40,176 nucleotides of DNA, from the IMG/VR virus record IMGVR_UViG_3300012202_000004, positions 1 through 40,176 of that record; one strand, given 5' to 3'. Source of the DNA: a virus. Below are positions 11,275 to 26,398 of this stretch, one piece after another. Position 1 is the stretch's first letter; every line of letters starts with the position of its first letter. The position numbers and the translations under genes are program-made. The notes beneath the pieces were generated by a model, which was not told the DNA's origin, made no database searches, and saw nothing but the letters and a program-made list of their open reading frames with translations.

Positions 11275-11279
11275 ATTAT

Positions 11280-13041: not shown

Positions 13042-13045
13042 GTCA

Positions 13046-13363: not shown

Positions 13364-13369
13364 ATACAC

Positions 13370-14343: not shown

Positions 14344-14843
14344 AGTGGCTCGATGAACTACTTTACAATATAGTTTATGGTTATAGGCATACGATAAACC
14401 AAGATTATACGCTAACCACTATACAAAACATGCCTCCAGACGTTCAAAACAAGCCTGTAGCGACTCCTATACATAAAAGCCGTATACAGACATGGGCTAA
14501 AGCAATAGGTGCTAACGAGGGCGCTAATCCAGCCCTAAATAATCCCGGCAACCTAAAACTAAGTACGTTAACGGCTTCATGGGGTGCTACAAAAGGTCAC
14601 CAAGCGTCTGATGGTGGTTGGTTGTGTCAATTCCCTACCCAGCAAGCTGGCTTTACTGCCTTATGCAACTTTCTGACACTTGCAGCCGAAGGTGAGTTGA
14701 TTATCTCTCACCCTAAACCATGTAGTCTGCAAACCTTTACGGTTAGATATGCCGGTAATCCTCCCCAAGGATATATAGACAGAATTGGTTTAGCGCTTGG
14801 GGTACCTCTAACGACTGATATTGCTACTTTATTGTGCTGTTGA
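14325..14843 (+). CDS. Endolysin, lysozyme-like
   Basis: 172 residues. Residues 55-80 (WAKAIGANEGANPALNNPG, then NLK) contain a Glu (E65) followed by an NNPGNLK motif, seen in phage lysozyme/muramidase-like domains. The core ends near residue 165 after FTVRYAGNPPQGYIDRI. Residues 1-20 (WQTFIKWLDELLYNIVYGY) are hydrophobic and aromatic and may be a membrane-associating helix. It lies between a cysteine peptidase and a holin candidate. The stop TGA lies inside a TGTTGATAA box that drives the next gene. Confidence 0.7.
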   Translation: MWQTFIKWLDELLYNIVYGYRHTINQDYTLTTIQNMPPDVQNKPVATPIHKSRIQTWAKAIGANEGANPALNNPGNLKLSTLTASWGATKGHQASDGGWLCQFPTQQAGFTALCNFLTLAAEGELIISHPKPCSLQTFTVRYAGNPPQGYIDRIGLALGVPLTTDIATLLCC

Positions 14844-14877
14844 TAACTAACCTTTACCTATAAAAGTACGCTACTAT
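14838..14877 (+). promoter_or_regulatory. TGTTGATAA-class promoter for the holin
   Basis: TGTTGATAA (14838-14846), 25 bp, TACTAT (14872-14877). Predicted start near 14884, 27 nt before the GTG start codon at 14911. Confidence 0.6.
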
Positions 14878-14910
14878 TACACTAGACTTATAAGATAATA
14901 AATAACTATC

Positions 14911-15108
14911 GTGGATAACGGAGAAATCGTGTCATTGACAGCACTTATTACAGGTATTCTTACTGCTTTCGGAGCAGGAAATATTGTACCTGTAATTGGC
15001 CCGGCAATTAACGTCATTCTTGCATTAGTAACATTAGGCACAGCAATTGCATCAGTTGTATCACATCGCAATAAGACAAATGCTATGGTTGCCGCAGGTA
15101 TTAAATAG
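14911..15108 (+). CDS. Holin candidate
   Basis: 65 residues from GTG. Two hydrophobic segments, roughly 7-26 (VSLTALITGILTAFGAGNIV) and 27-50 (IGPAINVILALVTLGTAIAS), with a charged C-terminus (SHRNKTNAM). Size, topology and position next to the lysin fit a class II holin. It has its own promoter, which would allow lysis timing separate from lysin synthesis, and is followed by a bidirectional terminator. Confidence 0.65.
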   Translation: MDNGEIVSLTALITGILTAFGAGNIVPVIGPAINVILALVTLGTAIASVVSHRNKTNAMVAAGIK

Positions 15109-15139
15109 TATACTTAAACTACCTTATACATAGGTACAC

Positions 15140-15229
15140 AAAGAGCCACCTTATCTTGTACGGTGGCTCTAAGTGTCTTTATCCAGCGATTACCGTTTCT
15201 GATAATGATGGTGTCGGTATCGCTTATGT
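15140..15229 (-). ncRNA. Candidate small RNA F
   Basis: Minus-strand segment beginning after a TATAGT hexamer (15241-15236). It contains GCGATACCG pairing with CGGTAATCGC (9 bp, one bulge) and ends in the AGAGCCACC/GGTGGCTCT hairpin followed by TTTGTG. No open frame. Its promoter is weak by eye and overlaps the end of the RNA C terminator. Confidence 0.35.
15142..15170. terminator. Bidirectional intrinsic terminator after the holin
   Basis: AGAGCCACC and GGTGGCTCT, 9-bp perfect stem with an 11-nt loop; AAGTGTCTTT follows on plus, TTTGTG on minus. Confidence 0.75.
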
Positions 15230-15239
15230 AATAATACTA

Positions 15240-15384
15240 TACAAAATCGCCCCGGTTGCAGTAGGGCGACTAGGACGGTAAGAACTATACGTAAGCATCA
15301 TGGAGTGTGACATGTACCGTGTAGGTTTTAGCCACTGTAATGTTCTCGCTTTTTTATATGTTATTGCTTACTAAAGGAGCCGTA
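15240..15384 (-). ncRNA. Candidate small RNA C
   Basis: About 145 nt on the minus strand, with a TGTTGATAA-class promoter at its start and the hairpin TCGCCC/GGGCGA (15269-15247) plus TTTTG at its end. The longest ATG frame inside is 14 codons. The segment carries an ATGATG...GCTTACG region that can pair with downstream DNA of RNA F. Function unknown. Confidence 0.45.
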
Positions 15385-15390
15385 CTGTTA

Positions 15391-15431
15391 ATAGTACGTT
15401 ACATATTTAATAAGCAATGTGGTTATCAACA
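15391..15431 (-). promoter_or_regulatory. TGTTGATAA-class promoter of RNA C
   Basis: On the minus strand TGTTGATAA (15431-15423), 26 bp, TACTAT (15396-15391). No protein gene follows within 240 nt. Confidence 0.6.
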
Positions 15432-15571
15432 GCATGGAGAGTAAAAACAGCACTATGACTAAAGGCATGTTACCTTTCTCGTCCATATCGGTATCTAAGC
15501 AAAGTTACCTTAGAAGTAGGTGAAGAAAAAGTCCCACGTTAATGGGACTCAAGTCTGCGGCACGCAGGGAG

Positions 15572-15790
15572 TCATGCCGGGTTCATAACCTCTTTACCAG
15601 TCCGCAGAAAGCCGACCAGATTGCGTTCCTGCCATAGTGTGAAGCAATTACAAGTCTGACCAAAGCGTACCACATTACCATACGTATCAACGGTGACAGT
15701 GCGTGTCCTGCCAAGCGCAATACCGCAGTTGCCAAAGCATTGGTCATACAGCACCTCTTTGAGAGAGCGTACGTGCAGTTTTGGGTTCAC
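15572..15790 (-). CDS. Small Cys-containing protein, last gene of the leftward operon
   Basis: 72 residues from GTG, preceded by AAAGGAGG, the clearest Shine-Dalgarno sequence in the window. Cys residues in CFGNCGIALGRTRTV and GQTCNCFTLW suggest metal binding or a disulphide pair. The strand pair RTRTVTVDTYGNVVRFG looks beta-structured. Family not recognised. The strong ribosome site sets it apart from its neighbours and may compensate for a long structured leader. Confidence 0.6.
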   Translation of the reverse strand: MNPKLHVRSLKEVLYDQCFGNCGIALGRTRTVTVDTYGNVVRFGQTCNCFTLWQERNLVGFLRTGKEVMNPA

Positions 15791-16192
15791 AATACCCTCC
15801 TTTGTTTGATGTATATATGCTCTGACTCTAAGGCTTCAGCTTTAAGGTAGGTATACCAATTAGCTGAACCGGGATTGCTCCCACTTAAAGTGCAGAGTGT
15901 ATATACACCAATGTATTTTATTGATGTGCGGGTGGGGAGCGTTTATGGACTTACACCATTTATTCTTTAGCCATCGGTGCCGAAGCTCCGATTCCGCTCA
16001 AGCATTATCCCTTGCACTTGAGCCACACGCCCCATCCACACACCAACTGTTATTTAAAAATTGCTAACTGGGAAAACCGGTTAGATGAAAAGGTCTTTCA
16101 ACCACCGCGCCAATTGCCTTTTCAAGCTCGGCTATTACGGTTCTTCTTCTTGCGGTTTGCCCAGTCAACAATCTTTAACTCTATCTCACATA
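15791..16192 (-). other. 400-nt structured stretch without a clear gene (minus strand)
   Basis: It follows a TGTTGATAA-class promoter. On the minus strand: 16165-16153 pairs with 16079-16067 over 13 positions with one mismatch, enclosing TGAAAAGG/CCTTTTCA; then GCTCAAG/CTTGAGC, ATCGG/CCGAT, GCTCCC...GGGAGC, the palindrome GTGTATATACAC (15897-15908), and TTCAGCT/AGCTGAA. It is probably a long leader or one or two non-coding RNAs. A short minus-strand frame without a usual start (VDWANRKKKNRNSRA) ends inside it, so coding cannot be fully excluded. Confidence 0.45.
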
Positions 16193-16232
16193 ATCTTAAC
16201 GTGCTTTTTTGCCTACAGATGAGTTATCAACA
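16193..16232 (-). promoter_or_regulatory. TGTTGATAA-class promoter, minus strand
   Basis: TGTTGATAA (16232-16224), exactly 25 bp, TAAGAT (16198-16193). It lies over the 3' end of the zinc-finger gene and would drive the structured stretch and the 72-residue gene. Confidence 0.6.
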
Positions 16233-16375
16233 CTATAGAACCTCTTAAACTGTTTGGAGGAACGGAAGCACTTATTGTCACAGTAGCTTCTGGGTATGAA
16301 GTCAGAGCGAAAGGGCGTAAACTTACCACAACCCTCCTTTTCGCATATTTTATTGGATAGAGTGACTGGTTTCAT
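16196..16375 (-). CDS. Small zinc-finger protein
   Basis: 59 residues from ATG 16375. Two Cys pairs, C-E-K-E-G-C and C-D-N-K-C, spaced by about 17 residues, form a zinc ribbon; the C-terminal third is basic (KQFKRFYSVDNSSVGKKAR). I prefer this start because it lies 4 bp after the upstream stop; a longer frame would overlap that gene by 68 bp. Probably binds nucleic acid. The same finger style occurs in the nuclease gene at 22493. Confidence 0.6.
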   Translation of the reverse strand: MKPVTLSNKICEKEGCGKFTPFRSDFIPRSYCDNKCFRSSKQFKRFYSVDNSSVGKKAR

Positions 16376-16379
16376 ACCC

Positions 16380-16676
16380 TTACTGTACACCCAATAACTG
16401 GCCGATAAACTGCTGTGTCTCTTTAGTTTGGTCGTCCCATGAGTCAAGCTCTAGGTTCCATTGCGCTCTGCCTACTAAATGGTCTACAGCTTCAAACCAT
16501 TTTTTAGCAGATATTTTTTTGCTTTTCTTTATAGCACGAAGTACCACAGCAAGTGTTATCCTATCGTCACGATAATTTATTAAGCCTTTAAACGGCGCAG
16601 GAATTATCACTGATATATTTCTACTCATCACATCAGGTACTAATTCCTGAATCTTTTTCTTTATTTTGTCGGTCAT
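16380..16676 (-). CDS. Early protein of unknown function
   Basis: 98 residues, basic N-terminal half (MTDKIKKKIQELVPDVMSRN, RAIKKSKKISAKKWFEAVDH) and acidic C-terminal half (LELDSWDDQTKETQQFIGQ). Predominantly helical. Its ATG overlaps the stop of the upstream zinc-finger gene (ATGA), so the two are translationally coupled. No family recognised. Confidence 0.6.
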   Translation of the reverse strand: MTDKIKKKIQELVPDVMSRNISVIIPAPFKGLINYRDDRITLAVVLRAIKKSKKISAKKWFEAVDHLVGRAQWNLELDSWDDQTKETQQFIGQLLGVQ

Positions 16677-16812
16677 ATAAGTAGGTCTTTATTTTTAGGT
16701 TCACCACATATTCTACAGACATATATTATTATTTTTATTGCAAAACGACTTTCACTAATACCAGTTGTTTTTTAGTCTTAATATATTCGTGTATATGTGA
16801 ATTTATTTCCAT
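16673..16812 (-). pseudogene. Small CxxC protein split by a frameshift at an A6 run
   Basis: Two frames make one sensible protein: MEINSHIHEYIKTKK from ATG 16812, then after a -1 shift on the run AAAAAA, TTGISESRFAIKIIIYVCRI and CGEPKNKDLLI. The second part has a CxxC zinc knuckle, and its TGA overlaps the next ATG as usual in this operon, which supports its reality. Without the shift the first frame stops after 25 codons. It could be programmed slippage, a real mutation or a sequencing error. Confidence 0.5.
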
Positions 16813-16817
16813 ATAAG

Positions 16818-17102
16818 TTACCTAAGTTCGTTAGCTTTAGCGCGAATAAGTGATGCTATGGTTTTATAAGCACGTTGTATGGTGTCTGCTTGACTCAATG
16901 ACTTAAAAACATCTTCACCTGCTCTTGCGTCAACCTCATCAGCAATCGCTATTAGCTCTTGGTGTATGAAGGAGAGCACTTCGTTTGGTGTTGTTGTTTC
17001 AGGAAAAAACCAATCAAAACGCGGTGTGCCAAGCTCTTTCGAGTCTTTGCTTTTACGACAGAACTTCTCTGCGAACCTATATCTTAGTGTAGTTGGTTTC
17101 AT
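16818..17102 (-). CDS. Early helical protein of unknown function
   Basis: 94 residues. Residues 30-90 are helical (PNEVLSFIHQELIAIADEVD, then SLSQADTIQRAYKTIASLIR). The N-terminus is basic. The start overlaps the stop of the upstream gene by 4 bp. No family recognised; position in the recombination/SSB-like cluster suggests a role in DNA metabolism. Confidence 0.6.
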   Translation of the reverse strand: MKPTTLRYRFAEKFCRKSKDSKELGTPRFDWFFPETTTPNEVLSFIHQELIAIADEVDARAGEDVFKSLSQADTIQRAYKTIASLIRAKANELR

Positions 17103-17596
17103 ATTATTTTACTTACCTGATAACCTGCTTCTTTAACTACCTTAATTGCACGCTCAAGGTCTAAGTTACTAAGTGATGAGTTTTCAGTGTCGGAGGACTT
17201 AGTGCTTTCGCGGACGAAGGCAAACCAGCAGCCGGCAATCCAGTCACTGTCGAACCAAGGGAGGCGGGCACTACGCTCGGAGTCATTCCACCAGACGTAG
17301 CAAACGAGCCGCCGGCCATCGAAGACTGCTTGTGAGCCTAAAGCTACTATTCCCTGATATTTACCTATACCGCTGTCTTTATTCTGTTCGTACCAGTCAA
17401 ATAGTTCTGTAGCATTTGCGGGTACACAACCGTCTTTTTTAAGCTCTTCTATAACCTCATCACTGGTAATATATCTATCAAAGTGTTTGAGTTCTATCTT
17501 ACCGCGTATGGGTTCAGGCTTAAAAAGCTTTTCGATATTTTCATTAACGTAATAGAATGAATCTGGATTGAGTAGTTTTTTAGGTTTTGTTTTCAT
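17099..17596 (-). CDS. Early protein of unknown function, Trp-rich
   Basis: 165 residues. The middle section (FDGRRLVCYVWWNDSERSAR then LPWFDSDWIAGCWFAFVR) is rich in Trp, Phe and Cys; the ends are charged. It overlaps both neighbours by 4 bp. The GC-richer stretch 17200-17330 corresponds to the Trp-rich region. No family recognised. Confidence 0.65.
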   Translation of the reverse strand: MKTKPKKLLNPDSFYYVNENIEKLFKPEPIRGKIELKHFDRYITSDEVIEELKKDGCVPANATELFDWYEQNKDSGIGKYQGIVALGSQAVFDGRRLVCYVWWNDSERSARLPWFDSDWIAGCWFAFVRESTKSSDTENSSLSNLDLERAIKVVKEAGYQVSKII

Positions 17597-17961
17597 ACTG
17601 TTTCCCCTCCATACATAGACACTATTTCAGGTGCCATAGCTATTAAGTTAGTCATGAGGTTTTCGTAGTAGGTCTTGAACTCTATACCGTTATCGTCTTT
17701 GAGCCAGATGCCGTAGATACGGGCCCGGAATATCTGTGAGGCCGTGCGTGTGTCTTTGAGTTTAAGTCTCTCGCCACTGTCACTCAGCGTTTCAATGCGT
17801 ATCGGTTTAAAGACAGCGGTATAGGTGTGGTTGCCGTCTTCGTTATCACTTTTCGTCTCTGAGATGATAGAGCCTTCTAAAAGCACTTTAAAGTTATGCC
17901 CTATTTCGATACGGTTGGGTGACTCGGCTTTACCTGATAGACGGAGTAGGTAGGTATCCAT
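17593..17961 (-). CDS. Early protein of unknown function
   Basis: 122 residues, beta-rich N-terminal two thirds (YLLRLSGKAESPNRIEIG, HTYTAVFKPIRIETL), helical end (YYENLMTNLIAMAPEIVSMY). It immediately follows the SSB-like gene (3 bp gap) and overlaps the next gene. The co-occurrence suggests a single-strand-DNA or recombination function, but no motif shows it. Confidence 0.6.
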   Translation of the reverse strand: MDTYLLRLSGKAESPNRIEIGHNFKVLLEGSIISETKSDNEDGNHTYTAVFKPIRIETLSDSGERLKLKDTRTASQIFRARIYGIWLKDDNGIEFKTYYENLMTNLIAMAPEIVSMYGGETV

Positions 17962-17964
17962 AGA

Positions 17965-18522
17965 TTAAAAAGGAAGTTCGATTGTTTCCTCCATTGAGTT
18001 CCAGCCTGATACATACCACTCAACAATAGCTTTATGGTTGGTGCGGATTTCTTCAAACGTCATTTCGTTATATGCGGGCATATTGGTAAGCATAATAGTG
18101 GCGTCTCGAAAGGCGGCGGCCAGCATAATACCCTTATTCTTATTCTCCTGCGCCTGTGTCACATGCTTAAAGGTAGTTTCTTGTGCCTTTTCTATATTGG
18201 CTGCTTTTGTTTCCATTGCCTTTGCACCACCACCAAAGCTACGCGTTGGCGTACTACGCGCTACCACTTCACCGTCATTCTTAGGCGCTGGTCGGTTAGG
18301 ATAGAGGGCAAATTTATGAGTGCTTGGATTTTGCCACAGGTTGCCTTCAATGGTATGGCCCGGCATAAGTGTGTCAAACTCTTTAAAAGCAATAGTGCCA
18401 TCCTTGTTTGTTTTATTGATAGATACGTTTTCAGTTACTTTACCATTCTCAATACCCTCTACTAAGATTGCGACAATCCAAGTGTCCGACTTTTTCTCCA
18501 TCCAATCTATGCGATAAATCAA
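17965..18522 (-). CDS. SSB-like protein with acidic Pro-Phe C-terminal tip
   Basis: 185 residues. Residues 1-75 are beta-strand rich (VAILVEGIENGKVTENVSI, DTLMPGHTIEGNLWQNPSTH), compatible with an OB fold. Residues 76-125 form a flexible charged linker. The C-terminus, MEETIELPF, resembles the acidic ...D-D-I-P-F tip through which bacterial SSBs recruit partners. A helical section (126-175) replaces the usual Gly/Pro tail, so this is not a canonical SSB. I infer single-stranded DNA binding; not proven by a signature motif. Confidence 0.5.
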   Translation of the reverse strand: MIYRIDWMEKKSDTWIVAILVEGIENGKVTENVSINKTNKDGTIAFKEFDTLMPGHTIEGNLWQNPSTHKFALYPNRPAPKNDGEVVARSTPTRSFGGGAKAMETKAANIEKAQETTFKHVTQAQENKNKGIMLAAAFRDATIMLTNMPAYNEMTFEEIRTNHKAIVEWYVSGWNSMEETIELPF

Positions 18523-18523
18523 A

Positions 18524-19075
18524 TTAGTTCACTTCACCCACCAAACTTTGAAAGTAAGGGGTTAGTTTCTTTTCATCTTCTCTTTTGCGAGGGTGATGGA
18601 AGTGGCATAGTGTAATGCCATTGGTTAATTTATAACGTAATTCAGGGAACTTTGCGTAACTTAATATGTGATGAACTTCTATACGACCTGCACAATCTGG
18701 ATTAGCTATCTTGCATTTGAAGTTATCTCGTAGCCAGACTTCTTTTCTCCAAGCATTATATGCTCCACTTCTTCTATCTTTAGCATCATCGCCATATCTT
18801 TGTAAGGAACTTCTATCTACTTTCCAACGTGGATGCTTTGTTTTATCTTTGAATCTCTCTAATTTAGAGTTGCTAATTTTGAGCGTAATTTCTGGTGAAT
18901 GTTTTCTCCCTTTCATTCCAGACGTTTTACCTAAACGAGCATTCCTCATTTTCTGCAACGTTTGAGGCGAAAATTTATGTCCTATCTTAAATTGTGTCGC
19001 TTTGGTTCCTTGTCGTATTTTTTCTATCACTTCTTTTGGCAATTTTCGACCAAGCATATGTATCCCTCTGGCCAT
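18524..19075 (-). CDS. Free-standing HNH homing endonuclease with NUMOD3 motifs
   Basis: 183 residues. NUMOD3-type DNA-binding repeats at about residues 45-75 (ARLGKTSGMKGRKHSPE, then LKISNSKLERF). HNH domain at 121-161: C121, C128, H135-H136, N152, and CHFHH at 157-161, with R-C-K-I and L-C-H-F-H framing. Such enzymes spread by cutting a sequence in related phages. It sits 1 bp before the SSB-like gene in a very compact operon, so the target may be the flanking sequence in empty-site relatives. Confidence 0.85.
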   Translation of the reverse strand: MARGIHMLGRKLPKEVIEKIRQGTKATQFKIGHKFSPQTLQKMRNARLGKTSGMKGRKHSPEITLKISNSKLERFKDKTKHPRWKVDRSSLQRYGDDAKDRRSGAYNAWRKEVWLRDNFKCKIANPDCAGRIEVHHILSYAKFPELRYKLTNGITLCHFHHPRKREDEKKLTPYFQSLVGEVN

Positions 19076-19084
19076 AATATTTGA

Positions 19085-19285
19085 TTATTCCTCAAAGTGG
19101 TTATAATCGGAGTTAGTTAAAGGCTGGTCGTCATCGTATCCCCTTATATAGTCCTGCGTGCTGCGTTCATTCTGGTCAAACTCTTTTGAGAGCATGGAAC
19201 GTAAGGTGCTTTTATTATTGACATCTAAGTGCATTACTTGCTCTTTTGCGGCTACTTCTTTTGCGATATAGTCTTGTTTTTCCAT
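19085..19285 (-). CDS. Small acidic early protein
   Basis: 66 residues; N-terminal helix (KQDYIAKEVAAKEQVMH), C-terminal Asp-rich tail (YIRGYDDDQPLTNSDYNHFE). The start is in a TAATATGGA context shared by several genes of this operon. No family recognised. Confidence 0.55.
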   Translation of the reverse strand: MEKQDYIAKEVAAKEQVMHLDVNNKSTLRSMLSKEFDQNERSTQDYIRGYDDDQPLTNSDYNHFEE

Positions 19286-19290
19286 ATTAT

Positions 19291-19449
19291 TTATTCTTTA
19301 GGAATATGAAATTCTCCACATTCGCAATTACATCCGTTATGTCTACACATTGATGTACAATCGTGATAGCAAAATCCTTCACCTTTATCTATCTGCACTT
19401 CATTTTCTGGTTGAATATCGTGTGTTACCTTTAATTTAATTGTTTTCAT
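19291..19449 (-). CDS. Small Cys-rich zinc-binding protein
   Basis: 52 residues. Six Cys and four His in the second half (CYHDCTSMCRHNGCNCECGE) suggest a compact zinc site. Overlaps the upstream gene by 14 bp. No family recognised. Confidence 0.55.
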   Translation of the reverse strand: MKTIKLKVTHDIQPENEVQIDKGEGFCYHDCTSMCRHNGCNCECGEFHIPKE

Positions 19450-19600
19450 ACTTAGAAAGTTTTTCTTTTAAATCAAGTATTGCTTCATCAAGAGTGGGAA
19501 TAAGTCCTTTTTCTTCTAGCTCTTTCTTTGTTGCTTCCATAAAACCTACAAGCTCTTGCATCATTAACTTTGTTACACTGCTCATTTTTTCGTAGTTCAT
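19436..19600 (-). CDS. Small helical early protein
   Basis: 54 residues, all helical and charged (MNYEKMSSVTKLMMQELVGF then EATKKELEEKGLIPTLDEAI). Overlaps both neighbours by a few bases, typical of a coupled operon. Function unknown. Confidence 0.55.
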   Translation of the reverse strand: MNYEKMSSVTKLMMQELVGFMEATKKELEEKGLIPTLDEAILDLKEKLSKYENN

Positions 19601-19794
19601 AGTTTATTTTTTAGATATGTAACTTCTTCTTCTGAAAGGACAGACTTAATTACGTCTGAAATCTCTAGTAAACTAAGTCCACCTCTCTGCTCACGGGTTT
19701 TTTTGAGTGAGACTATAAGCTCATCTCGTGTCCACTCGGATATAAGTAACTGTCTTTGTTTCTGCAACTCTTCTCTTAGTTGTTTAGCGTCCAT
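19597..19794 (-). CDS. Small coiled-coil early protein
   Basis: 65 residues, helical: REELQKQRQLLISEWTRDEL, SLKKTREQRGG, then LEISDVIKSVLSEEEVTYLK. The LSEEEVTYLK ending resembles EF-hand-like short helices but no metal loop is seen. Overlaps the next gene by 4 bp. Confidence 0.55.
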   Translation of the reverse strand: MDAKQLREELQKQRQLLISEWTRDELIVSLKKTREQRGGLSLLEISDVIKSVLSEEEVTYLKNKL

Positions 19795-19795
19795 A

Positions 19796-20005
19796 TTAAG
19801 GTCTACTAGCTTTTATAAACTTTATGCCCTTCGCAAAAACATATCTGACTGTCTCTGACCACTGGAGTTTTACCGGCCTATAGTCATACTTGATAGTGGC
19901 TATAGGTTGTTTACCCCATTCGTGCCAGGCTTCCTGTTCGACGCGCTTTTGTATTTCATTCTTAACCGACCAGTCTGCCGGATTGTACATATTAGTTTTC
20001 TCCAT
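19796..20005 (-). CDS. Small early protein of unknown function
   Basis: 69 residues. Helix (ADWSVKNEIQKRVEQEAWHE) followed by a basic, aromatic region (IKYDYRPVKLQWSETVRYVF). Overlaps the upstream zinc-ribbon gene by 14 bp. No family recognised. Confidence 0.55.
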   Translation of the reverse strand: MEKTNMYNPADWSVKNEIQKRVEQEAWHEWGKQPIATIKYDYRPVKLQWSETVRYVFAKGIKFIKASRP

Positions 20006-20225: not shown

Positions 20226-20294
20226 ATTAGTTACTTCGCTGTCAGCTCCTACCCACTCAGTGCGAGTAAGAGCTGGCAACGCCTGAGTTATTTG

Positions 20295-20604: not shown

Positions 20605-20605
20605 A

Positions 20606-20752: not shown

Positions 20753-20781
20753 ATTCTTTTATAAATGAACTTGATAAAGTG

Positions 20782-20911: not shown

Positions 20912-20935
20912 ACTAAGAAGTGTATATAGTTGCTA

Positions 20936-21151
20936 GTGGGGAAAAATCAGATACGCGACCTCAAGTCGGCGATTACGGGAGTGAATCATACAGCGTTTTT
21001 GAACGCGATTTGCCTTATTGATTATTCGGCAACACCCCACAATCAACTTGGTGTAGTTAGTGGATTTATCCCCCATCAGCAACCATATTTCAAAGAGGTG
21101 TACCGTCCACATAACAAATCAAACAGTAAGAGCGAGTCTCAAACCAGTTGA
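20936..21151 (+). CDS. Doubtful small protein
   Basis: 71 residues from GTG 20936, with TATAGT ending 5 nt before it. The composition (GKNQIRDLKSAITGVNHTAF, then polar C-terminus KSNSKSESQTS) is acceptable but there is no family, no coupled neighbour and no ribosome site. The region 20912-21263 holds nothing else that I can support except the promoter at 21229. Confidence 0.25.
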   Translation: MGKNQIRDLKSAITGVNHTAFLNAICLIDYSATPHNQLGVVSGFIPHQQPYFKEVYRPHNKSNSKSESQTS

Positions 21152-21212
21152 CCGTCTATGGAAGGTGCCTCTACTAGAAATAATACACCCTATAAAAATA
21201 CCGTCAAGTGAC

Positions 21213-21221
21213 TTATCCACA
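21213..21221 (+). promoter_or_regulatory. DnaA-box-like site TTATCCACA
   Basis: Perfect match to the bacterial DnaA consensus, just upstream of the rightward early promoter. It also resembles the reverse complement of the phage TGTTGATAA box (TGTGGATAA), so its meaning is ambiguous. Confidence 0.4.
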
Positions 21222-21228
21222 GCGCCAC

Positions 21229-21257
21229 TTGTACTCTTAATTCTTCTATGGTAGACT
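21229..21257 (+). promoter_or_regulatory. Rightward early promoter
   Basis: TTGTAC, 17-bp spacer, TAGACT with an upstream TGG, then 6 nt and ATG at 21264. No TGTTGATAA box, consistent with host sigma70 use early in infection. Confidence 0.65.
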
Positions 21258-21263
21258 ATATAA

Positions 21264-21407
21264 ATGGATAAGAAAAAGAAGAAGCCGAAATTGCCAAAGC
21301 ATGTGCGATTAACATTGAGAGATTGGGAGCAGTTGCGCCGTGTAGCGTTCAGAATGCACACGCCAATGGCAACGCTTGTATCTAAACTTATAGTTGAACA
21401 TTTATGA
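21264..21407 (+). CDS. Ribbon-helix-helix DNA-binding protein, leaderless
   Basis: 47 residues. A basic tail (MDKKKKKPKLPK), a strand HVRLTL, helix RDWEQLRRVAFRMHT and helix PMATLVSKLIVEHL give a ribbon-helix-helix fold of the Arc/CopG kind. It is the first gene of the rightward early operon and its ATG coincides with the predicted transcription start. It is a good candidate for an early regulator. The stop overlaps the next ATG. Confidence 0.7.
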   Translation: MDKKKKKPKLPKHVRLTLRDWEQLRRVAFRMHTPMATLVSKLIVEHL

Positions 21408-21688
21408 CCCAACGTGAAGCGTCAGTGAGGCTACTAGCCACCCAACTAGGTAAATGGTTTAAAAGCTATGAACTGGTACAAAAGACTATCGACGGAAAGT
21501 TCACGGGTATATCCCCTATGGAACGTCTGTACGAACTCACCAAGATAGGCTACTTCGACTCCAAGACCTACCGTTACTTTTTAGAGCATAGAAAAGTCGG
21601 GAAGTACGCGGAGTTCCGGGTGAGTCACCGTGAGGCACTGCCAAAGAATAGTTATCAATTATTTCATCTATATAAACAAACGGTATGA
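21404..21688 (+). CDS. Early protein of unknown function
   Basis: 94 residues, basic and aromatic; helix-rich N-terminal part (REASVRLLATQLGKWFKSYE) followed by GISPMERLYELTKIGYFDSK and KTYRYFLEHRKVGKYAEFRV, a winged-helix-like pattern. Overlaps both neighbours by 4 bp. May be a DNA-binding accessory protein. Confidence 0.55.
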   Translation: MTQREASVRLLATQLGKWFKSYELVQKTIDGKFTGISPMERLYELTKIGYFDSKTYRYFLEHRKVGKYAEFRVSHREALPKNSYQLFHLYKQTV

Positions 21689-21873
21689 ATAACACACATT
21701 TTATAACAATAAAAGGTTTCTCTAAACTTGATGTAAATAGATTTCCGGTGCTTATATGTGCAAAATGTAAAGAACCAACTGTAGCAATTTCAGTACAAAA
21801 AGGAGATGCTGTATGTGAGGTACATTTAGATATACATCAATTACTAGACAAGAACAATAATACTAATTATTAA
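21685..21873 (+). CDS. Small zinc-finger-like protein
   Basis: 62 residues. C-A-K-C near residues 25-28 and C-x-x-H (CEVHLDIH) near 44 form a small zinc site. Coupled to the upstream gene. Function unknown. Confidence 0.55.
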   Translation: MNNTHFITIKGFSKLDVNRFPVLICAKCKEPTVAISVQKGDAVCEVHLDIHQLLDKNNNTNY

Positions 21874-21880
21874 CACTTAT

Positions 21881-22042
21881 ATGGAAAAGAAAATAATCCA
21901 AGGTTTTGTTTGGGAAAGTTCTGGTCATGCTCATATTATGATTGTAACTGAAGACGGTGAATTATATAAAAGCTATGGTGGAGAAGCTACTACAGAACCT
22001 GTATGGTTAAAAATAGTTTTACCATTAAGTGAAAAGAAATGA
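21881..22042 (+). CDS. Small early protein
   Basis: 53 residues (MEKKIIQGFVWESSGHAHIM, then IVTEDGELYKSYGGEATTEP), beta-rich. The stop overlaps the next ATG by 4 bp (ATGA). No family recognised. Confidence 0.5.
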   Translation: MEKKIIQGFVWESSGHAHIMIVTEDGELYKSYGGEATTEPVWLKIVLPLSEKK

Positions 22043-22287
22043 AAATACGAACAGGAATAGATTGTGTCTGTAATTACGAATATATCTGTGTGTACCACTA
22101 CACTAGATTAGTTACCCGAGCTTTAAATATATTAGCTATATTAGGCATGTTATTTTCAGCGTATATTGCTTATACAAATAATATTTTAGTTGGTTTTTTG
22201 TCTGCTGCGATATTAATTATTTCCATAATATGCACTTACTTTGTAACTAAAGTTATGAAGGATATCATATCTGATGATATGATTTAA
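22039..22287 (+). CDS. Small two-span membrane protein
   Basis: 82 residues. Two hydrophobic segments at about 30-46 (LNILAILGMLFSAYIAY) and 49-69 (ILVGFLSAAILIISIICTYF). N-terminal Cys residues (CVCNYEYICVYH). Early gene, so exclusion or host-membrane functions are possible. Confidence 0.55.
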   Translation: MKIRTGIDCVCNYEYICVYHYTRLVTRALNILAILGMLFSAYIAYTNNILVGFLSAAILIISIICTYFVTKVMKDIISDDMI

Positions 22288-22289
22288 TA

Positions 22290-22451
22290 ATGGCAAACTA
22301 TTATAATTCAACTTTTAAACGGAAACCTGCTGCCAAAGGAATTAAGAGGTCAAAACTACGGAAACTTGGTAAAACCCCGGCAGCGGTCATTAAAAGGCGC
22401 ATACAAGCCCTCTTGAGGCAGATTGCCATACTGCGTGATAAAGACTGTTGA
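22290..22451 (+). pseudogene. 5' remnant of a split NinG-like nuclease gene
   Basis: 53 codons. Its last 36 residues (KRSKLRKLGKTPAAVIKRRI then QALLRQIAILRDKDC) align with residues 2-36 of the intact gene at 22912 (RRIQSLLRQIAILRDKNC), then it stops at Cys-TGA-TAA. The N-terminal extension MANYYNSTFKRKPAAKG is absent from the downstream copy. I read it as the original 5' end of the gene, cut off by insertion of the nuclease cassette. It may still be translated. Confidence 0.7.
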
Positions 22452-22486
22452 TAAGTACCCGAATAGACCTATTCATGGTATATAAT
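22446..22486 (+). promoter_or_regulatory. TGTTGATAA-class promoter of the homing nuclease
   Basis: TGTTGATAA (22446-22454), 26 bp, TATAAT (22481-22486), 6 nt, ATG 22493. The box itself supplies the TGT-TGA-TAA that ends the split gene, so the promoter lies exactly at the insertion junction. Confidence 0.7.
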
Positions 22487-22492
22487 TAGTAC

Positions 22493-22915
22493 ATGCATAA
22501 GTTAGAATGTTTAGTATGTGATAAGCAATTTGAATCAAAATGGCAAAGAACTAAAACTTGTTCTTTAGAATGTCATAGAACTAGAATAAGAAAAATAGAA
22601 GGCAGATTCGCTGATGAATATATACCTAATGGTTCTGTCGGGGCATTAGCAGAACTTGTAGTTTCGGCAGATTTGCTTTCTAAGGGATTTTCAGTATTTA
22701 GAGCACTATCACCATCTTGTTTCTGCGATTTGATAGCTGTAAAAGGAAATAAATCCTTAAAAATTGAAGTAAGAACAGGTTATCTACATTCAATTACTAA
22801 AAGACTAAATTTTCCTACTAAAACTAATGAACAAACTGACTGCTTTGCAGTCTTTGAAAGAAATTCAAAAGAAATTTTTTATCTTACTAAAGATAAAAAT
22901 GAATTTAAATTATGA
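22493..22915 (+). CDS. PD-(D/E)XK homing-type endonuclease with N-terminal zinc finger, leaderless
   Basis: 140 residues. Zinc finger C6-C9-C23-C27. Nuclease core: Glu54 in GALAELVVSADLLSKGF, Asp79 in CFCDLIAV, and Glu92-x-Arg94 in LKIEVRTGY. This is the pattern of I-Ssp6803I-like and related small PD-(D/E)XK homing enzymes, with the usual ExK/QxK written as ExR. It lies between the cut-off 5' remnant and the recoded full copy of the NinG-like gene and overlaps the latter by 4 bp. It is probably the driver of the insertion. Confidence 0.75.
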   Translation: MHKLECLVCDKQFESKWQRTKTCSLECHRTRIRKIEGRFADEYIPNGSVGALAELVVSADLLSKGFSVFRALSPSCFCDLIAVKGNKSLKIEVRTGYLHSITKRLNFPTKTNEQTDCFAVFERNSKEIFYLTKDKNEFKL

Positions 22916-23325
22916 AAAGAAGTTATATAGCTAAGCTAGGAAAATCTGACTTCTCTAAAACAAAGAGGAGGATTCAATCCTTGCTCAGACAAATAGCTAT
23001 TTTACGTGACAAAAATTGTGTATTAAATAGATATTCTATTACAGGGGCATGTTCCGGCCCGTTTCAAGCCGAGCACCTTGCGTCTCGCAGCATTTCTATC
23101 AGCTATGGAGATATGCGAAACATTGTACTACTTTGCCAACGACATCATATCTTTTGGAAGCCACAGAACTCGCGCATATACTGGGAACTTATAGAACAAA
23201 TAATCGGCCCGGTACGTTGGAACTATATTAAGCTCGTGGAAGCGGATAAGAAGCCTTACAAGATGGATTGGCTACTTGTGGAAGTCTCCCTGCAACACCA
23301 ATTAAGCAGCTATGAAAAAAACTAA
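22912..23325 (+). CDS. NinG-like HNH nuclease, rebuilt 5' end
   Basis: 137 residues. Basic N-terminal helix (residues 12-34), then C36 and C47, E54-H55, N70 and CQRHH at 75-79: an HNH-type metal site arranged as in NinG/Rap-like recombination proteins, which act on Holliday junctions. The first 36 residues duplicate the remnant at 22290 at protein level, with many silent base differences. The gene follows the homing nuclease with an ATGA overlap. Confidence 0.65.
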   Translation: MKRSYIAKLGKSDFSKTKRRIQSLLRQIAILRDKNCVLNRYSITGACSGPFQAEHLASRSISISYGDMRNIVLLCQRHHIFWKPQNSRIYWELIEQIIGPVRWNYIKLVEADKKPYKMDWLLVEVSLQHQLSSYEKN

Positions 23326-23512
23326 ACTCTCTTCCGATAACGAACCATACTACGCTGTGCTTTGTACAGGTGGTTATGCTCTTAAAAATGCCCTTATCAT
23401 GGGTGTATTTGCGTCAAAAATAGAAGCCACTGAGGTAATGAACCGGGAAGATTTACGCCTGTGTCCGGCAAAGCATGTAATTAAAAAATGCAAGGTTGAA
23501 GTTACGTTTTAA
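23312..23512 (+). CDS. Small early protein
   Basis: 66 residues (EPYYAVLCTGGYALKNALIM, then VFASKIEATEVMNREDLRLC). Overlaps the upstream gene by 14 bp and precedes the next by 1 bp. Mixed alpha/beta; resembles small sensor-like folds but no family is recognised. Confidence 0.55.
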   Translation: MKKTKLSSDNEPYYAVLCTGGYALKNALIMGVFASKIEATEVMNREDLRLCPAKHVIKKCKVEVTF

Positions 23513-23513
23513 T

Positions 23514-23714
23514 ATGTCATTTATCCAAGAAACCGTACAATGCACCAACTGTAAGCTATATCACAATATAGCTCTGGGTACTTTTGGGTATGGCTGGCCT
23601 AATAAGTGCAGGTTTTGTGGTGTAGACACAGTATTTAAACAAATACAAAGTGGCTGGCACGCCGACAATGATGGTAGTTGGAAAGAAACAAGTTTACGGG
23701 ACGATTTTAAATAA
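23514..23714 (+). CDS. Small zinc-ribbon protein, last gene of the rightward early operon
   Basis: 66 residues from ATG 23514. CTNCKLYH near residues 9-16 and CRFCG near 32-36 form a rubredoxin-like zinc ribbon, then a Trp/Asp-rich C-terminus. Convergent with the 129-residue minus-strand gene. Confidence 0.6.
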   Translation: MSFIQETVQCTNCKLYHNIALGTFGYGWPNKCRFCGVDTVFKQIQSGWHADNDGSWKETSLRDDFK

Positions 23715-23747
23715 GTTAGTCTGTAAAATCTGTGGGCGATTGTTAAT

Positions 23748-24137
23748 TTAGAACGTGCTTATATCGTTGAAACTTTTAGCTTCGTCACTGTACGAATAAT
23801 TTACACCATTAGTGCTATTCAACATATATTGTTGAGAAGTACCTGTGACTGAATTACCTCCACAATAAGACTGGTAACTATCATACCAACCCCGTTGGGC
23901 GTACGGTTTCTCTATATACCGTATGTTTTCAATAATGGTAGAACGAGTAGACATTTTGTTTATCAACTCTCTAAGAAACTTTATTTCTTCTTTAAGAGAG
24001 TCTGTGTCTCGTTCCTCACTTTGCTCGCTAAATAGTATTTGTCTTGCTTCTTCTTGAGTAATTATCTTGTCTTTGACAAGTTCACGCACTTCATCGGGAT
24101 TTGGTAGCTTACTCAGCCGCCATTTAAGGTTTTTCAT
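23748..24137 (-). CDS. Coiled-coil protein of unknown function
   Basis: 129 residues. The N-terminus KWRLSKLPNPDEVRELVKDK followed by IITQEEARQILFS is a helix with an EEAR-type motif I have the impression of from candidate-phyla phages. A coiled coil follows (DSLKEEIKFLRELINKMS). The C-terminal third is Tyr/Ser/Asn-rich and disordered, which suggests surface display or self-assembly. It is a lone gene, with two possible RNA units upstream on the same strand. Confidence 0.6.
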   Translation of the reverse strand: MKNLKWRLSKLPNPDEVRELVKDKIITQEEARQILFSEQSEERDTDSLKEEIKFLRELINKMSTRSTIIENIRYIEKPYAQRGWYDSYQSYCGGNSVTGTSQQYMLNSTNGVNYSYSDEAKSFNDISTF

Positions 24138-24199
24138 TTTGTGTTATTTAGCCCACAGATTTCAAATACCAACCTACCAATAACTATATCATCAAAATA

Positions 24200-24364
24200 A
24201 TTAGTCCCACACTCCGCGTAGTAGTCGCGTTAAGAGTATGGGACTGATAGTGTTCGATTTTAACTGTCTAGCAAAACTAGAACAAGTATCCTATTTAAGC
24301 GCCGAGGTGACTATCACAGTGCTGGCCGCCGAGCCAGAGTCAGCTACAACTCACTCTGGCGAAT
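24200..24364 (-). ncRNA. Candidate structured RNA D
   Basis: Promoter TGG-TATACT (24379-24371) on the minus strand, then hairpin GCCAGAGT/ACTCTGGC, a helix GATAGT...ACTATC enclosing TCTAG-ttttg-CTAGA, and a 12-bp hairpin 24245-24234 with 24214-24203 plus inner CGCG/CGCG, then AATTATTTTG. The 12-bp stem contains one U.G pair on the minus strand but a C-A mismatch on the plus strand, which indicates that the minus-strand RNA is the functional one. It could be free or the leader of the 129-residue gene. Confidence 0.55.
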
Positions 24365-24370
24365 GTTTTT

Positions 24371-24379
24371 AGTATACCA
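24371..24379 (-). promoter_or_regulatory. Extended -10 promoter of RNA D
   Basis: TG-G-TATACT, start predicted near 24364. It lies just downstream of the RNA E terminator. Confidence 0.5.
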
Positions 24380-24382
24380 CGC

Positions 24383-24416
24383 AAAACCCCGGCGGAACTT
24401 TCGTCTGGCCGGGGCG
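24383..24416 (-). terminator. Intrinsic terminator, minus strand
   Basis: CCCCGGC (24387-24393) pairs with GCCGGGG (24408-24414), 7 GC pairs at least, followed on the minus strand by TTTTGC. Confidence 0.7.
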
Positions 24417-24525
24417 TTACTACTTTAAAGTTTAACACGTTAGCACAGGTTCAGTCTCGCGTTGACTATACGGCCGTACTTTCCTCCTACAAAGCTAAAG
24501 CTATGGGGGACATGCATATATTAAC
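24383..24525 (-). ncRNA. Candidate small RNA E
   Basis: A minus-strand segment of about 143 nt between a weak TGTTGATAA-class promoter and the GC-rich terminator CCCCGGC/GCCGGGG + TTTTGC. No open frame of note. It contains the palindrome TACGGCCGTA. Size and layout match RNA C. Confidence 0.3.
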
Positions 24526-24526
24526 A

Positions 24527-24565
24527 CACTTACATGAAAAGTCTATGAGGTTTGAGTTATCAACA
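24527..24565 (-). promoter_or_regulatory. Weak TGTTGATAA-class promoter
   Basis: TGTTGATAA (24565-24557), 24 bp, TAAGTG (24532-24527). The -10 is poor; the box is exact. Confidence 0.35.
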
Positions 24566-24568
24566 TAT

Positions 24569-24574
24569 TATATT
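24569..24574 (+). promoter_or_regulatory. Candidate -10 of the replication operon
   Basis: TATATT, predicting an RNA start near 24581 and a 150-nt structured leader before the O-like gene. No clear -35. Confidence 0.4.
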
Positions 24575-24628
24575 AGACTAAATGAAGAAAAGGTGAAATA
24601 GTTAGTGTATGTATCAAATCGTAAGTAT

Positions 24629-24643
24629 CAACAATAATTGTTG
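24629..24643. promoter_or_regulatory. Dyad-symmetric operator candidate
   Basis: CAACAAT-a-ATTGTTG, perfect 7-bp arms, 2 bp upstream of the three-way junction and downstream of the predicted start. Suitable for a dimeric repressor. Confidence 0.45.
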
Positions 24644-24644
24644 T

Positions 24645-24718
24645 GCAAAAGGAGTTGCTGATGTCTCTTCGGAGGCGAGGTTTCTTACGAACCCTATACA
24701 GTCGGCAGCTCCTTTTGC
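24645..24718 (+). ncRNA. Three-way-junction RNA element in the O-gene leader
   Basis: Arms 24645-24660 and 24703-24718 pair over 16 bp on the plus strand with two U.G wobbles; on the minus strand these would be A-C mismatches, so the plus-strand RNA is the selected one. Inside are CTC-TTCG-GAG, a C(UUCG)G tetraloop hairpin, and GGTTT-cttac-GAACC. It ends 13 nt before the O-like start codon. It may be a riboswitch-like control or a replication RNA. Confidence 0.6.
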
Positions 24719-24731
24719 GTTGCAATGAGTT

Positions 24732-25451
24732 ATGGCCTCTCCTCAAAAAGAGAACGGGTTTACACCAGTCGCTAATGAAATAGTCGAAGCATTGGCGCGT
24801 ACCCGTATAAATGGTGAAGCCATGCAGGTGCTTTGGGTTATTTTGCGTAAAACCTATGGTTATCAAAAGAAAGAAGACGCAATAGCACTATCACAGTTTG
24901 TTGAGTTTACAGGCCTTAAAAGACAAACTGTTTATAAAGCAATACATAAATTACTTATGCTAGGAATTGTAACCCAAAAAGGTTCCACTATTGCAAATAA
25001 GTATTGCTTTATAAAGAATTATGCGTTATGGAAACCGTTACCCAAAAAGGTTCGTGGAACCCAAATAGGTTCAAAGCGAACCCAAAAAGGTTCCAAATGG
25101 AACCCAAATAGGGTACTACAAAAGAAAAAAGAAAATATACAAAAGAAAGAACCCGCATCGCAAGACGATGCTATGGTTACTAGTGTTATTAAAGCTTTTG
25201 AAGTGGTAGACCCTAAGAACAAAGGCTATTACGGAAATACCACCCAACGCAAAGCCTGTGGCTTTCTCATAGAGGAATATGGCTTAGAAGAAGTCTTAAA
25301 GCGCGTGGGCGTACTTCCTCGAACAAACAAAGTGCCATACTTTCCCTCAATTACAACTCCCCACCAATTAAAAGAAAAATGGGTACAGCTACAAGATAGA
25401 GTCCAACAAAAGCGTACCGAATTACAGGCCAAAAAAGTAAAAGTGATATGA
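24732..25451 (+). CDS. Replication initiator, phage O-like
   Basis: 239 residues. Residues 8-95 (FTPVANEIVEALARTRINGE, then QVLWVILRKTYGYQKKEDAI, SQFVEFTGLKRQTVYKAIHK) are the winged-helix N-terminal domain of lambda O/ReplicO proteins, which binds origin iterons. A Lys/Gln-rich linker (110-140) is encoded by the iterons themselves, and a helical C-terminal domain would recruit the helicase or its loader. Overlaps the next gene by 4 bp. As in lambda, the origin lies within the gene. Confidence 0.85.
   Translation: MASPQKENGFTPVANEIVEALARTRINGEAMQVLWVILRKTYGYQKKEDAIALSQFVEFTGLKRQTVYKAIHKLLMLGIVTQKGSTIANKYCFIKNYALWKPLPKKVRGTQIGSKRTQKGSKWNPNRVLQKKKENIQKKEPASQDDAMVTSVIKAFEVVDPKNKGYYGNTTQRKACGFLIEEYGLEEVLKRVGVLPRTNKVPYFPSITTPHQLKEKWVQLQDRVQQKRTELQAKKVKVI
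24971..25116. other. Replication origin: five iterons in the O-like gene
   Basis: AACCCAAAAAGGTTCC-type repeats at 24971, 25039, 25058, 25079 and 25101 (16 bp each). The last four are spaced 19-22 bp, about two helical turns. Each is an imperfect dyad (GAACC-N6-GGTTC). They are followed at 25117-25155 by a one-strand A-rich tract. Iterons plus A-rich flank inside the O gene is the lambda-ori layout. Confidence 0.75.
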
Positions 25452-25870
25452 AATACAAAATAAAGTTAATTACGGGCTTCCGACGCGACCAAGAATACAG
25501 CATAGACGCCAATGAAGCACACAAGGCTTATTACCTATTTGATAATCCCGATACTCGTTCAACATTTAGTAATGGACTGGCTATCAAAGGCGACCAAATA
25601 CAGGAAATCGTACCAGACTTCCAAGGCACAATGGGTTGGAATGCCACGCATGTGTTAGACAGTGACGACCATAATGAACTGGCAAAACTCGGAGTAGATA
25701 GAAAATTACGCAGCATCATGAGCGCAGCGCGGGAGATAGCTAAACTTGGAGAACAAACCGACTTACATACGCTTCTAAGCAAGCTATTAAAAACAAAATA
25801 CCCACAATTAGCTGCGCCAGCCCAGCGCACGGGAGAAATGAAAAGCATTAGTGAAATAGCAGGTTCCTAG
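25448..25870 (+). CDS. Replication-module protein of unknown function
   Basis: 140 residues. Residues 1-75 are beta-rich (IKLITGFRRDQEYSIDANEA, LAIKGDQIQEIVPDFQGTMG); residues 76-125 are helical (ELAKLGVDRKLRSIMSAARE, LHTLLSKLLKTKYPQ). Coupled to the O-like gene by an ATGA overlap; position P would normally be a helicase loader, but no such motif is visible. Confidence 0.6.
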   Translation: MKYKIKLITGFRRDQEYSIDANEAHKAYYLFDNPDTRSTFSNGLAIKGDQIQEIVPDFQGTMGWNATHVLDSDDHNELAKLGVDRKLRSIMSAAREIAKLGEQTDLHTLLSKLLKTKYPQLAAPAQRTGEMKSISEIAGS

Positions 25871-25907
25871 CTCACCTCATAGTCTTTAGCAAGTAAGAGA
25901 ACTAAAT

Positions 25908-26132
25908 ATGCCTAACGAACAACAAGCTCACGAAACTAAACACTGGGTTAAAGAATATAATGAGGCAAATTTTACCTGTGTATTTGATAAAGACGGTAAT
26001 ACATATAAAGCTAAGTTACCCGGAGGAGATATTATGAGATGTAAAACAATAGAACAATTAAAACCACATATAGAAAATGCTATTAAGAATGCAAAGATTT
26101 TATCTGTTGATAACCCATATATCCCTAAATAA
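25908..26132 (+). CDS. Small protein, paralogue of the next gene
   Basis: 74 residues (KHWVKEYNEANFTCVFDKDG, then IEQLKPHIENAIKNAKIL). The layout strand-strand-helix with W-x-K...F-x-x-x-F-x-x-D...Y-x-A, then a helix ending in AI, matches the 26150 gene, suggesting an old duplication. Its last codons contain a TGTTGATAA box. Confidence 0.55.
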   Translation: MPNEQQAHETKHWVKEYNEANFTCVFDKDGNTYKAKLPGGDIMRCKTIEQLKPHIENAIKNAKILSVDNPYIPK

Positions 26133-26143
26133 GCGTATATAAT
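26105..26143 (+). promoter_or_regulatory. TGTTGATAA-class promoter
   Basis: TGTTGATAA (26105-26113), 24 bp, TATAAT (26138-26143), 6 nt, ATG 26150. Confidence 0.6.
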
Positions 26144-26149
26144 AAACAT

Positions 26150-26350
26150 ATGTTTAATCATCCTATAGATAAAATAACGGATATGAAATGGAGAAAAATT
26201 CCTAATGCCTTAGGATTTGAAGCATTTTTTGAAAGAGACACACAGAAATATAGGGCGGAAATAACAGCATCCGTAGCACTATCATTAAGCACAGTTGAAG
26301 ATACCTTAGCCGCTTGTGAGAAAGCTATTTTATATGCTAAACCGATATAA
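26150..26350 (+). CDS. Small protein, leaderless, paralogue of the previous gene
   Basis: 66 residues (MKWRKIPNALGFEAFFERDT, then QKYRAEITASVALSLSTVED). See the 25908 gene for the shared pattern. Its own TGTTGATAA-class promoter separates it from the replication operon. Function unknown. Confidence 0.6.
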   Translation: MFNHPIDKITDMKWRKIPNALGFEAFFERDTQKYRAEITASVALSLSTVEDTLAACEKAILYAKPI

Positions 26351-26358
26351 TAAAATTG

Positions 26359-26398
26359 TGTTGATAACTCGCAACACATATATTTAACGTGGTATAGT
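26359..26398 (+). promoter_or_regulatory. TGTTGATAA-class promoter of the late operon
   Basis: TGTTGATAA (26359-26367), 25 bp, TGG-TATAGT (TATAGT 26393-26398). Start near 26405. It is the last promoter of this class before the packaging and structural genes, so it is the best candidate for the late promoter. Confidence 0.65.

Follow-up and report, generated by a model that had tools for sequence, protein, structure and literature searches.

A repeated DnaA-box-like word at a fixed distance from the -10 hexamer in promoters of a phage with a probable Patescibacteria host

Which protein reads a 9-bp word that recurs ahead of -10 hexamers in a phage genome? This question is raised by the word TGTTGATAA in the IMG/VR virus record IMGVR_UViG_3300012202_000004, the whole of which (positions 1-40,176; 40,176 bp) was analysed and is here called the window. 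Genes of the window include those for a large terminase, a portal protein, GroEL and an O-like replication protein. A preliminary description had reported seven exact copies of the word, six of them followed by a good -10 after 24-26 bp, and had suggested that an activator, perhaps phage-coded, thereby turns on a second class of genes. The promoter class proved real, while the word appears to be a variant of the DnaA box rather than a private sequence of the phage.

Copy number and spacing of the repeated word

All seven copies were recovered in a recount (14838+, 15423-15431 on the minus strand, 16224-16232 on the minus strand, 22446+, 24557-24565 on the minus strand, 26105+ and 26359+). Dinucleotide shuffles give an expectation of 0.50, with a largest count of 2 and seven copies reached in 0 of 100 shuffles, and a third-order Markov model gives 0.76; the preliminary rough figure had been 0.3 for both strands. 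Together with the following C, the word forms the 10-mer TGTTGATAAC (6 copies versus 0.16 expected, P = 2e-8), and no other 10-mer in the window is as strongly enriched.

Counted from the last base of the box, a good -10 lies at a gap of 24-26 bp in 6 of the 7 copies, where the chance background of a comparable hexamer is 5.4% per site (P about 2e-7). The mean -10 score after TGTTGATAA peaks at these gaps, and every other gap scores lower. A motif search relative to the -10 had been proposed as a check. Indeed, when all 8- to 10-mers were scanned blindly against gap windows, TGTTGATAA with its gap ranked first by a wide margin, leading any unrelated word of the window by several orders of magnitude and also outranking the best words of 16 other contigs. 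Scored with a bipartite matrix, the six sites reach 20-24, followed by 15.2 (the copy at 24557-), 14.0 and then background, i.e. there is a clean break and no graded series of weaker sites. The variant box that had been assigned to the lysis promoter (13323) is indistinguishable from the background, since its score of 11.4 lies where 12 sites are seen and 8 expected (scores of 11 or more). The seven copies are placed as follows.

14838-14877, plus strand: promoter with box TGTTGATAA at 14838-14846, gap 25 bp, -10 TACTAT at 14872-14877; upstream of a hydrophobic 65-residue open reading frame (ORF) at 14911-15108
15391-15431, minus strand: promoter with box TGTTGATAA at 15423-15431, gap 26 bp, -10 TACTAT at 15391-15396; followed by a gap with only a tiny ORF and then a hairpin near 15146-15190
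16193-16232, minus strand: promoter with box TGTTGATAA at 16224-16232, gap 25 bp, -10 TAAGAT at 16193-16198; followed by a leader of about 400 nucleotides, the ORF 15572-15790 and a terminator-like hairpin at 15529-15550
22446-22486, plus strand: promoter with box TGTTGATAA at 22446-22454, gap 26 bp, -10 TATAAT at 22481-22486; start codon of gene 22493 six bp past the -10 (leaderless)
26105-26143, plus strand: promoter with box TGTTGATAA at 26105-26113, gap 24 bp, -10 TATAAT at 26138-26143; start codon of gene 26150 six bp past the -10 (leaderless)
26359-26398, plus strand: promoter with box TGTTGATAA at 26359-26367, gap 25 bp, -10 TATAGT at 26393-26398; upstream of gene 26412 and a long plus-strand operon (GroEL, terminase, structural genes)
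24557-24565, minus strand: seventh copy of TGTTGATAA, without a -10 at 24-26 bp and excluded from the class

The -35 regions are poor, as described before: the best hexamers at the six promoters match in 2-3 of 6 positions and are no better than random (mean 2.9). When the -10 hexamer is placed at -12 to -7, the box is centred at -41 to -43. Class II activators bind at about -41.5, and the six promoters combine such a site with a weak -35 and an intact -10, in agreement with the class II position first proposed. A second half-site, as expected for a dimer, was present only at 26359 (hairpin TGTGTTG...CAACACA) and absent from the other boxes. Two other identities were rejected: an IHF site by inspection, as the remainder of the IHF consensus is absent, and promoters of the sigma54, FliA or extracytoplasmic function (ECF) type, as the -10 is plainly of the sigma70 type and the spacing does not fit.

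Gene 22493, which is PD-(D/E)XK-like, is followed by the unassigned gene 22912; the small genes 26150 and 26412 precede the GroEL, terminase and structural genes on the same strand. The idea of a second gene class holds in so far as the box replaces the -35 in a real promoter class that includes 26359+ just upstream of the structural operon, which is probably the late promoter. Towards the left, the minus-strand stretches 15384-15146 and 16186-15529 are mostly non-coding, with a box promoter at the head and a hairpin at the end. The leftward members 15423- and 16224- may make short phage RNAs, which are candidate small RNAs.

A -10 that ends 5-7 bp ahead of the start codon was found for 12 of 73 genes, compared to 5.5% of other ATGs (P = 0.001). 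This set includes 22493 and 26150 behind TGTTGATAA boxes as well as 10340, 10432 and 21264 at divergent promoters with canonical boxes, which are described below. With a -10 only 6-7 bp from the start codon, the mRNAs of several box promoters would be leaderless, and the enrichment of this spacing lends indirect support to the use of the predicted promoters.

Relation of the word to the DnaA box

Read in reverse, TGTTGATAA becomes TTATCAACA, a non-palindromic 9-mer that has the identical span as the DnaA-box consensus TTATNCACA and differs from it in one letter (position 6), which is within the one-letter limit for DnaA boxes. TTATCAACA has been given as DnaA box at the linear-chromosome origin of Cyanothece 51142 (PMC4674748), and TT(T/A)TCAACA has been discussed as a proposed mollicute motif (PMC3322544). 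Other DnaA-type words of the window, in box orientation, are TTATCCACA, TTATACACA and CTATACACA.

The host of the virus is probably a tiny member of the Patescibacteria, as suggested by its protein relatives. Among named phages, the nearest capsid protein is that of a phage infecting TM7/Saccharibacteria, which also has a chaperonin gene, and a relative of the terminase, GroEL and portal genes was found in a 1-Mb genome bin. Ribosomal protein uL30 is absent from 56 of 59 genomes in the phylum to which this bin belongs, an absence that we take to be a mark of Patescibacteria. Such hosts probably possess few transcription factors. The tRNA of the window did not identify the host, as its matches were limited to generic tRNA arms. 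This tRNA (12451-12538) was assigned to Asp (GTC), although the long variable arm gives its body the look of a tRNA-Leu; its D and T arms match host-phylum tRNA stretches, and it is flanked by the inverted repeat AGAGGAAGTAT/ATACTTCCTCT. The Rfam scan returned this tRNA only.

Within the likely host phylum, which is that of the 1-Mb bin, the dnaA loci of 31 genomes were surveyed. The two most enriched 9-mers near dnaA are TGTGGATAA (22 versus 2.1 expected) and TGTGGAAAA (23 versus 3.2). TGTTGATAA occurs 13 times versus 3.0 expected, spread over 12 loci, and TGTGTATAA (10 versus 0.9) and TGTGCATAA (8 versus 0.4) are enriched as well, while the control words TGTAGATAA (2 versus 1.2) and TGTCGATAA (1 versus 1.1) are not. 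TGTTGATAA is thus over-represented next to dnaA/oriC in the group that probably contains the host, as is expected of a DnaA box, and the earlier notion of a sequence private to a phage-coded activator finds no support. The pair TGTGGATAA-N1-30-TGTTGATAA occurs in 4 of 192 genomes and in 3 of these 4 at no more than 1 kb from dnaA; the control pair with TGTAGATAA likewise occurs in 4 of 192 genomes, with 0 of 4 near dnaA. In several host-phylum genomes TGTTGATAAC lies between -35-like and -10-like hexamers near the dnaA start, i.e. in putative dnaA promoters, which would be where autoregulation is expected. Taken together, the TGTTGATAA box is predicted to be the DnaA-box variant TTATCAACA, read as TGTTGATAA towards the promoter.

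According to the preliminary description, the best sigma70 promoters (10374- and 21229+) lack the box. Although this is true of the exact 9-mer, it misleads, since TGTGTATAG precedes the -10 of 10374- by 26 bp and one TGTGGATAA is common to 21207- and 21229+, which form a divergent pair. The claim that other strong promoters have no equivalent is not supported, as DnaA-box words stand at comparable positions there and in two related phages. The sites in the window are the following.

21180-21257, both strands: divergent early promoters with DnaA box TGTGGATAA at 21213-21221 (minus); leftward TTGACG-16-TATTAT with -10 at 21180-21185, gap 27; rightward TTGTAC-17-TAGACT with -10 at 21252-21257, gap 30, ATG at 21264 leaderless
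10347-10424, both strands: divergent promoters with TGTGTATAG at 10379-10387 (minus); leftward TTGACA-16-TATACT with -10 at 10347-10352, gap 26; rightward -10 TATACT at 10419-10424, gap 31; both leaderless
12335-12413, both strands: divergent promoters with DnaA box TGTGTATAA at 12369-12377 (minus); leftward TACAAT, gap 28, towards a methyltransferase gene; rightward TATACT at 12408-12413, gap 30, towards the tRNA gene
13328-13370, minus strand: doubtful member with TGTGTATAG at 13362-13370, gap 28 bp, TATAAT at 13328-13333; overlaps the start of the opposite-strand gene 13370

In the window, the oriC words defined at the dnaA loci are found 9 times, in 8 of these cases followed by a -10 after 24-28 bp, compared to 4 of 59 for their one-letter neighbours (P = 6e-7 for the contrast, with a gap range picked after the window had been inspected); TGTGTATAG at promoters accounts for two of these 4 neighbours. 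Each of the four TGTGNATAR words in the window precedes a strong -10 by 26-28 bp (P = 7e-8, for a set chosen post hoc), and three of them (10379, 12369 and 21213) are flanked by divergent promoters, the -10 on the opposite side lying at 30-31 bp.

Similar arrangements were found in two related phages. G004 (38.7 kb), a relative whose terminase is 60% identical, has one TGTGGATAA at 4820 (minus strand) in the gap between its divergent early genes, and -10s lie 24 and 29 bp from it. The TM7 phage MG269973 has one TGTGGAAAA at 24742 (minus strand) in a divergent gene gap, where -10s are placed at 28 and 29 bp. Among the other contigs examined, no DnaA-type site was found in divergent gaps, hence the trait is not universal. 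Beside the DnaA box of the TM7 phage, two copies of the palindrome TTCTATATAGAA (24672-24720) are likely operators. CTGTGGAAAA, which is enriched in this phage, was rejected as an equivalent, as it is mostly coding and does not keep to the -42 rule except in the divergent gap.

The 82-kb phage L131 carries triple TGTTGATAAC/TGTGGAAAAC arrays directly ahead of three TTGACA promoters (8088-8129, 8691-8722 and 9832-9873). These arrays hint independently that the two words go together and with promoters, although L131 was retrieved through the TGTTGATAAC-TATAAT pattern and its presence is partly selected. Megablast of the region against phages gave no match, and relatives sought via the lysis and early proteins were none or one weak. 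Among the matches listed for TGTTGATAAC plus TATAAT in IMG/VR, most are chance; adding a leaderless ATG left 23 matches versus 9 for the reversed-word control, mostly coding chance, and no further phage with several TGTTGATAAC-TATAAT-ATG promoters emerged from this pattern search.

Candidate readers of the box

Host DnaA is the first candidate for the reader of the box, because the word is enriched at dnaA loci and because DnaA-box words stand at the strongest promoters and in two related phages. We see about an even chance that host DnaA serves the DnaA-box promoters as a class II-like activator, where the host, the binding of DnaA, activation rather than repression and the timing are all judged from sequence. 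DnaA would bind the box at about -41 to -43 of at least six phage promoters without usable -35 and would hold RNA polymerase on the sigma70-type -10 promoter, as a class II activator does. From canonical boxes (TGTGGATAA, TGTGTATAA/G) between the better, divergent promoters, it could tune early transcription both ways. DnaA is known to both activate and repress transcription, and it stimulates oriLambda transcription via the beta subunit of RNA polymerase (PMC8203912).

Several observations weigh against this reading. The single mismatch of TGTTGATAA to TTATNCACA falls on a conserved base, and the gap range of the oriC-word comparison was, as said, a post hoc choice. Terminase relatives (60-65%) lack TGTTGATAA at promoters, and some relatives carry a different repeated dyad box, GTAGTACCACTAC, 18-21 bp ahead of the -10 in gaps of the late genes. 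Host chromosomes show no clear promoter class of this kind, and relatives were also found in bins of other phyla.

The box GTAGTACCACTAC is a different word and was set aside as a member of the TGTTGATAA class, yet it means that phage-specific factors may be at work. A phage-coded protein, e.g. 10432, which is of the helix-turn-helix (HTH) type, or 21264, which is small and basic, might recognise TGTTGATAA and activate delayed genes like T4 MotA or Mu C, the likeness to DnaA being incidental or mimicry, and to this we assign a minor share of the probability. Exact, undegenerate sites confined to one phage would suit such a factor, the other box of the relatives fits a box and factor that change with the phage, and a distant homologue of 10432 is present in G005. 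However, the span and 8 of 9 letters of the word coincide with the DnaA box, canonical boxes are similarly placed elsewhere in this phage as well as in G004 and MG269973, and the scanned phage proteins yielded no Pfam DNA-binding domain except for the O-like replication protein. No DnaA match was found among them either, and the predicted fold of 10432 (predicted local distance difference test score, pLDDT, of 51) was too uncertain to be used. In late-gene gaps of relatives, a dyad GTAGT-ACC-ACTAC lies near the start codon and 18-21 bp ahead of a -10 (L004/L008 at 4311 and 6655, L006 at 4754 and 6898, G005 at 15709 and 21056); it is possibly the relatives' own promoter box.

It is unlikely that host RNA polymerase itself reads the box as an UP-like or -35-proximal element without separate regulator. 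The fixed place beside the -35 would agree with this, and in host-phylum genomes a wider pattern of DnaA-type word plus TATAAT exceeds its reversed control (77 versus 23). This comparison is confounded by word frequency, however, as in one of these genomes the word by itself already outnumbers its reverse about twofold; the matches show no clear enrichment of a consensus -35 at the proper distance (6 of 77 versus 4 of 158, P = 0.08), and the exact 9-mer is unlike an AT-rich UP element. The narrower pattern TGTTGATAAC-N22-26-TATAAT occurs in 4 of 192 genomes and its reversed control in 1.

Similarly improbable is that the boxes are operators at which a repressor, of the phage or DnaA, keeps the promoters off, like immunity operators or stoperators. 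Identical sites recur in the gaps between genes, dnaA itself is among the several genes repressed by DnaA (PMC8203912), and TGTTGATAAC sits between -35 and -10 of the putative dnaA promoters. On the other hand, the six promoters have no usable -35 and thus need help rather than blocking, and the box overlaps neither the -10 nor the start. That the boxes merely serve replication by recruiting or titrating DnaA, with promoters nearby by chance, is very improbable: they are DnaA-box words, and in the unrelated gut phage L113, TGTTGATAA and TGTGGATAA form an origin-like array in which both orientations occur (5067-5131, just past a primase/helicase-like gene), but the sites in the window are single and scattered with strict -10 spacing and form no array, and the phage itself encodes an O-like protein whose gene contains repeats.

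Activation by host DnaA can be extended to a broader, tentative proposal, which we hold with more doubt than confidence: phages of Patescibacteria might use host DnaA as a general transcription activator, with canonical boxes for divergent early promoters, a variant box replacing the -35 for later genes, and a gene order read from DnaA level or replication state. In the collection of papers searched, none dealt with promoters or gene regulation of Patescibacteria phages. Should host DnaA drive a whole class of phage promoters, a replication initiator would act as global activator of a phage, which would couple viral expression to the control of host replication. The proposal entails a testable rule for transcription starts in these phages, namely a -10 placed 24-28 bp after a DnaA-type word and about 6 bp ahead of an ATG.

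Further features of the window and comparison with known systems

The GroEL gene (511 residues) and a protein at 29379-29675, GroES-like by eye, occupy 27664-29675. A GroEL/Cpn60-type gene is also present in relatives and in the TM7 phage, and the phage chaperonin may be a family trait. Five or six AACCCAAAWAGGTT repeats within the O-like replication gene (24971-25112) resemble a lambda-type origin. A perfect 22-bp direct repeat, GTGTCGCACAATATACCTTTTC, is found at 10852-10873 and 13298-13319, one copy just ahead of the lysis promoter, and a perfect 24-bp inverted repeat, AAGTTCTCTGATATCTCTCATCCT, at 13045-13068 and 13247-13270 with 178 bp between. At 11017-11519 a DUF4258 gene adjoins a DUF2283 gene, possibly as a small two-gene module.

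Among known systems, the stoperators and start-associated sequences of mycobacteriophages are likewise short intergenic words repeated in one phage, and stoperators bind the immunity repressor; a fixed distance to the -10 is not their hallmark, in contrast to the boxes of the window. Class II activation by CRP or lambda CI at about -41.5 is alike in box position and weak -35, but the 9-bp non-palindromic word of the window suggests a monomer-type site, as for DnaA. T4 middle promoters retain the sigma70 -10 but have an asymmetric phage box of about 9-10 bp where the -35 would be (PMC2988021). The MotA box has another sequence, tolerates changes and has its centre at -30, with 12 +/- 1 bp to the -10, whereas the TGTTGATAA sites are invariant and lie 24-26 bp away. 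DnaA-regulated promoters (E. coli nrdAB, B. subtilis sda, oriLambda/pR) resemble the window in having DnaA boxes near a sigma70-type promoter, with DnaA as transcription factor, and in lambda, host DnaA stimulates a phage transcript by way of the beta subunit of RNA polymerase (PMC8203912). These known cases are single promoters of varied geometry, whereas here one variant stands at six promoters at a fixed distance, replacing the -35, and canonical boxes are found in three divergent pairs of the same phage.

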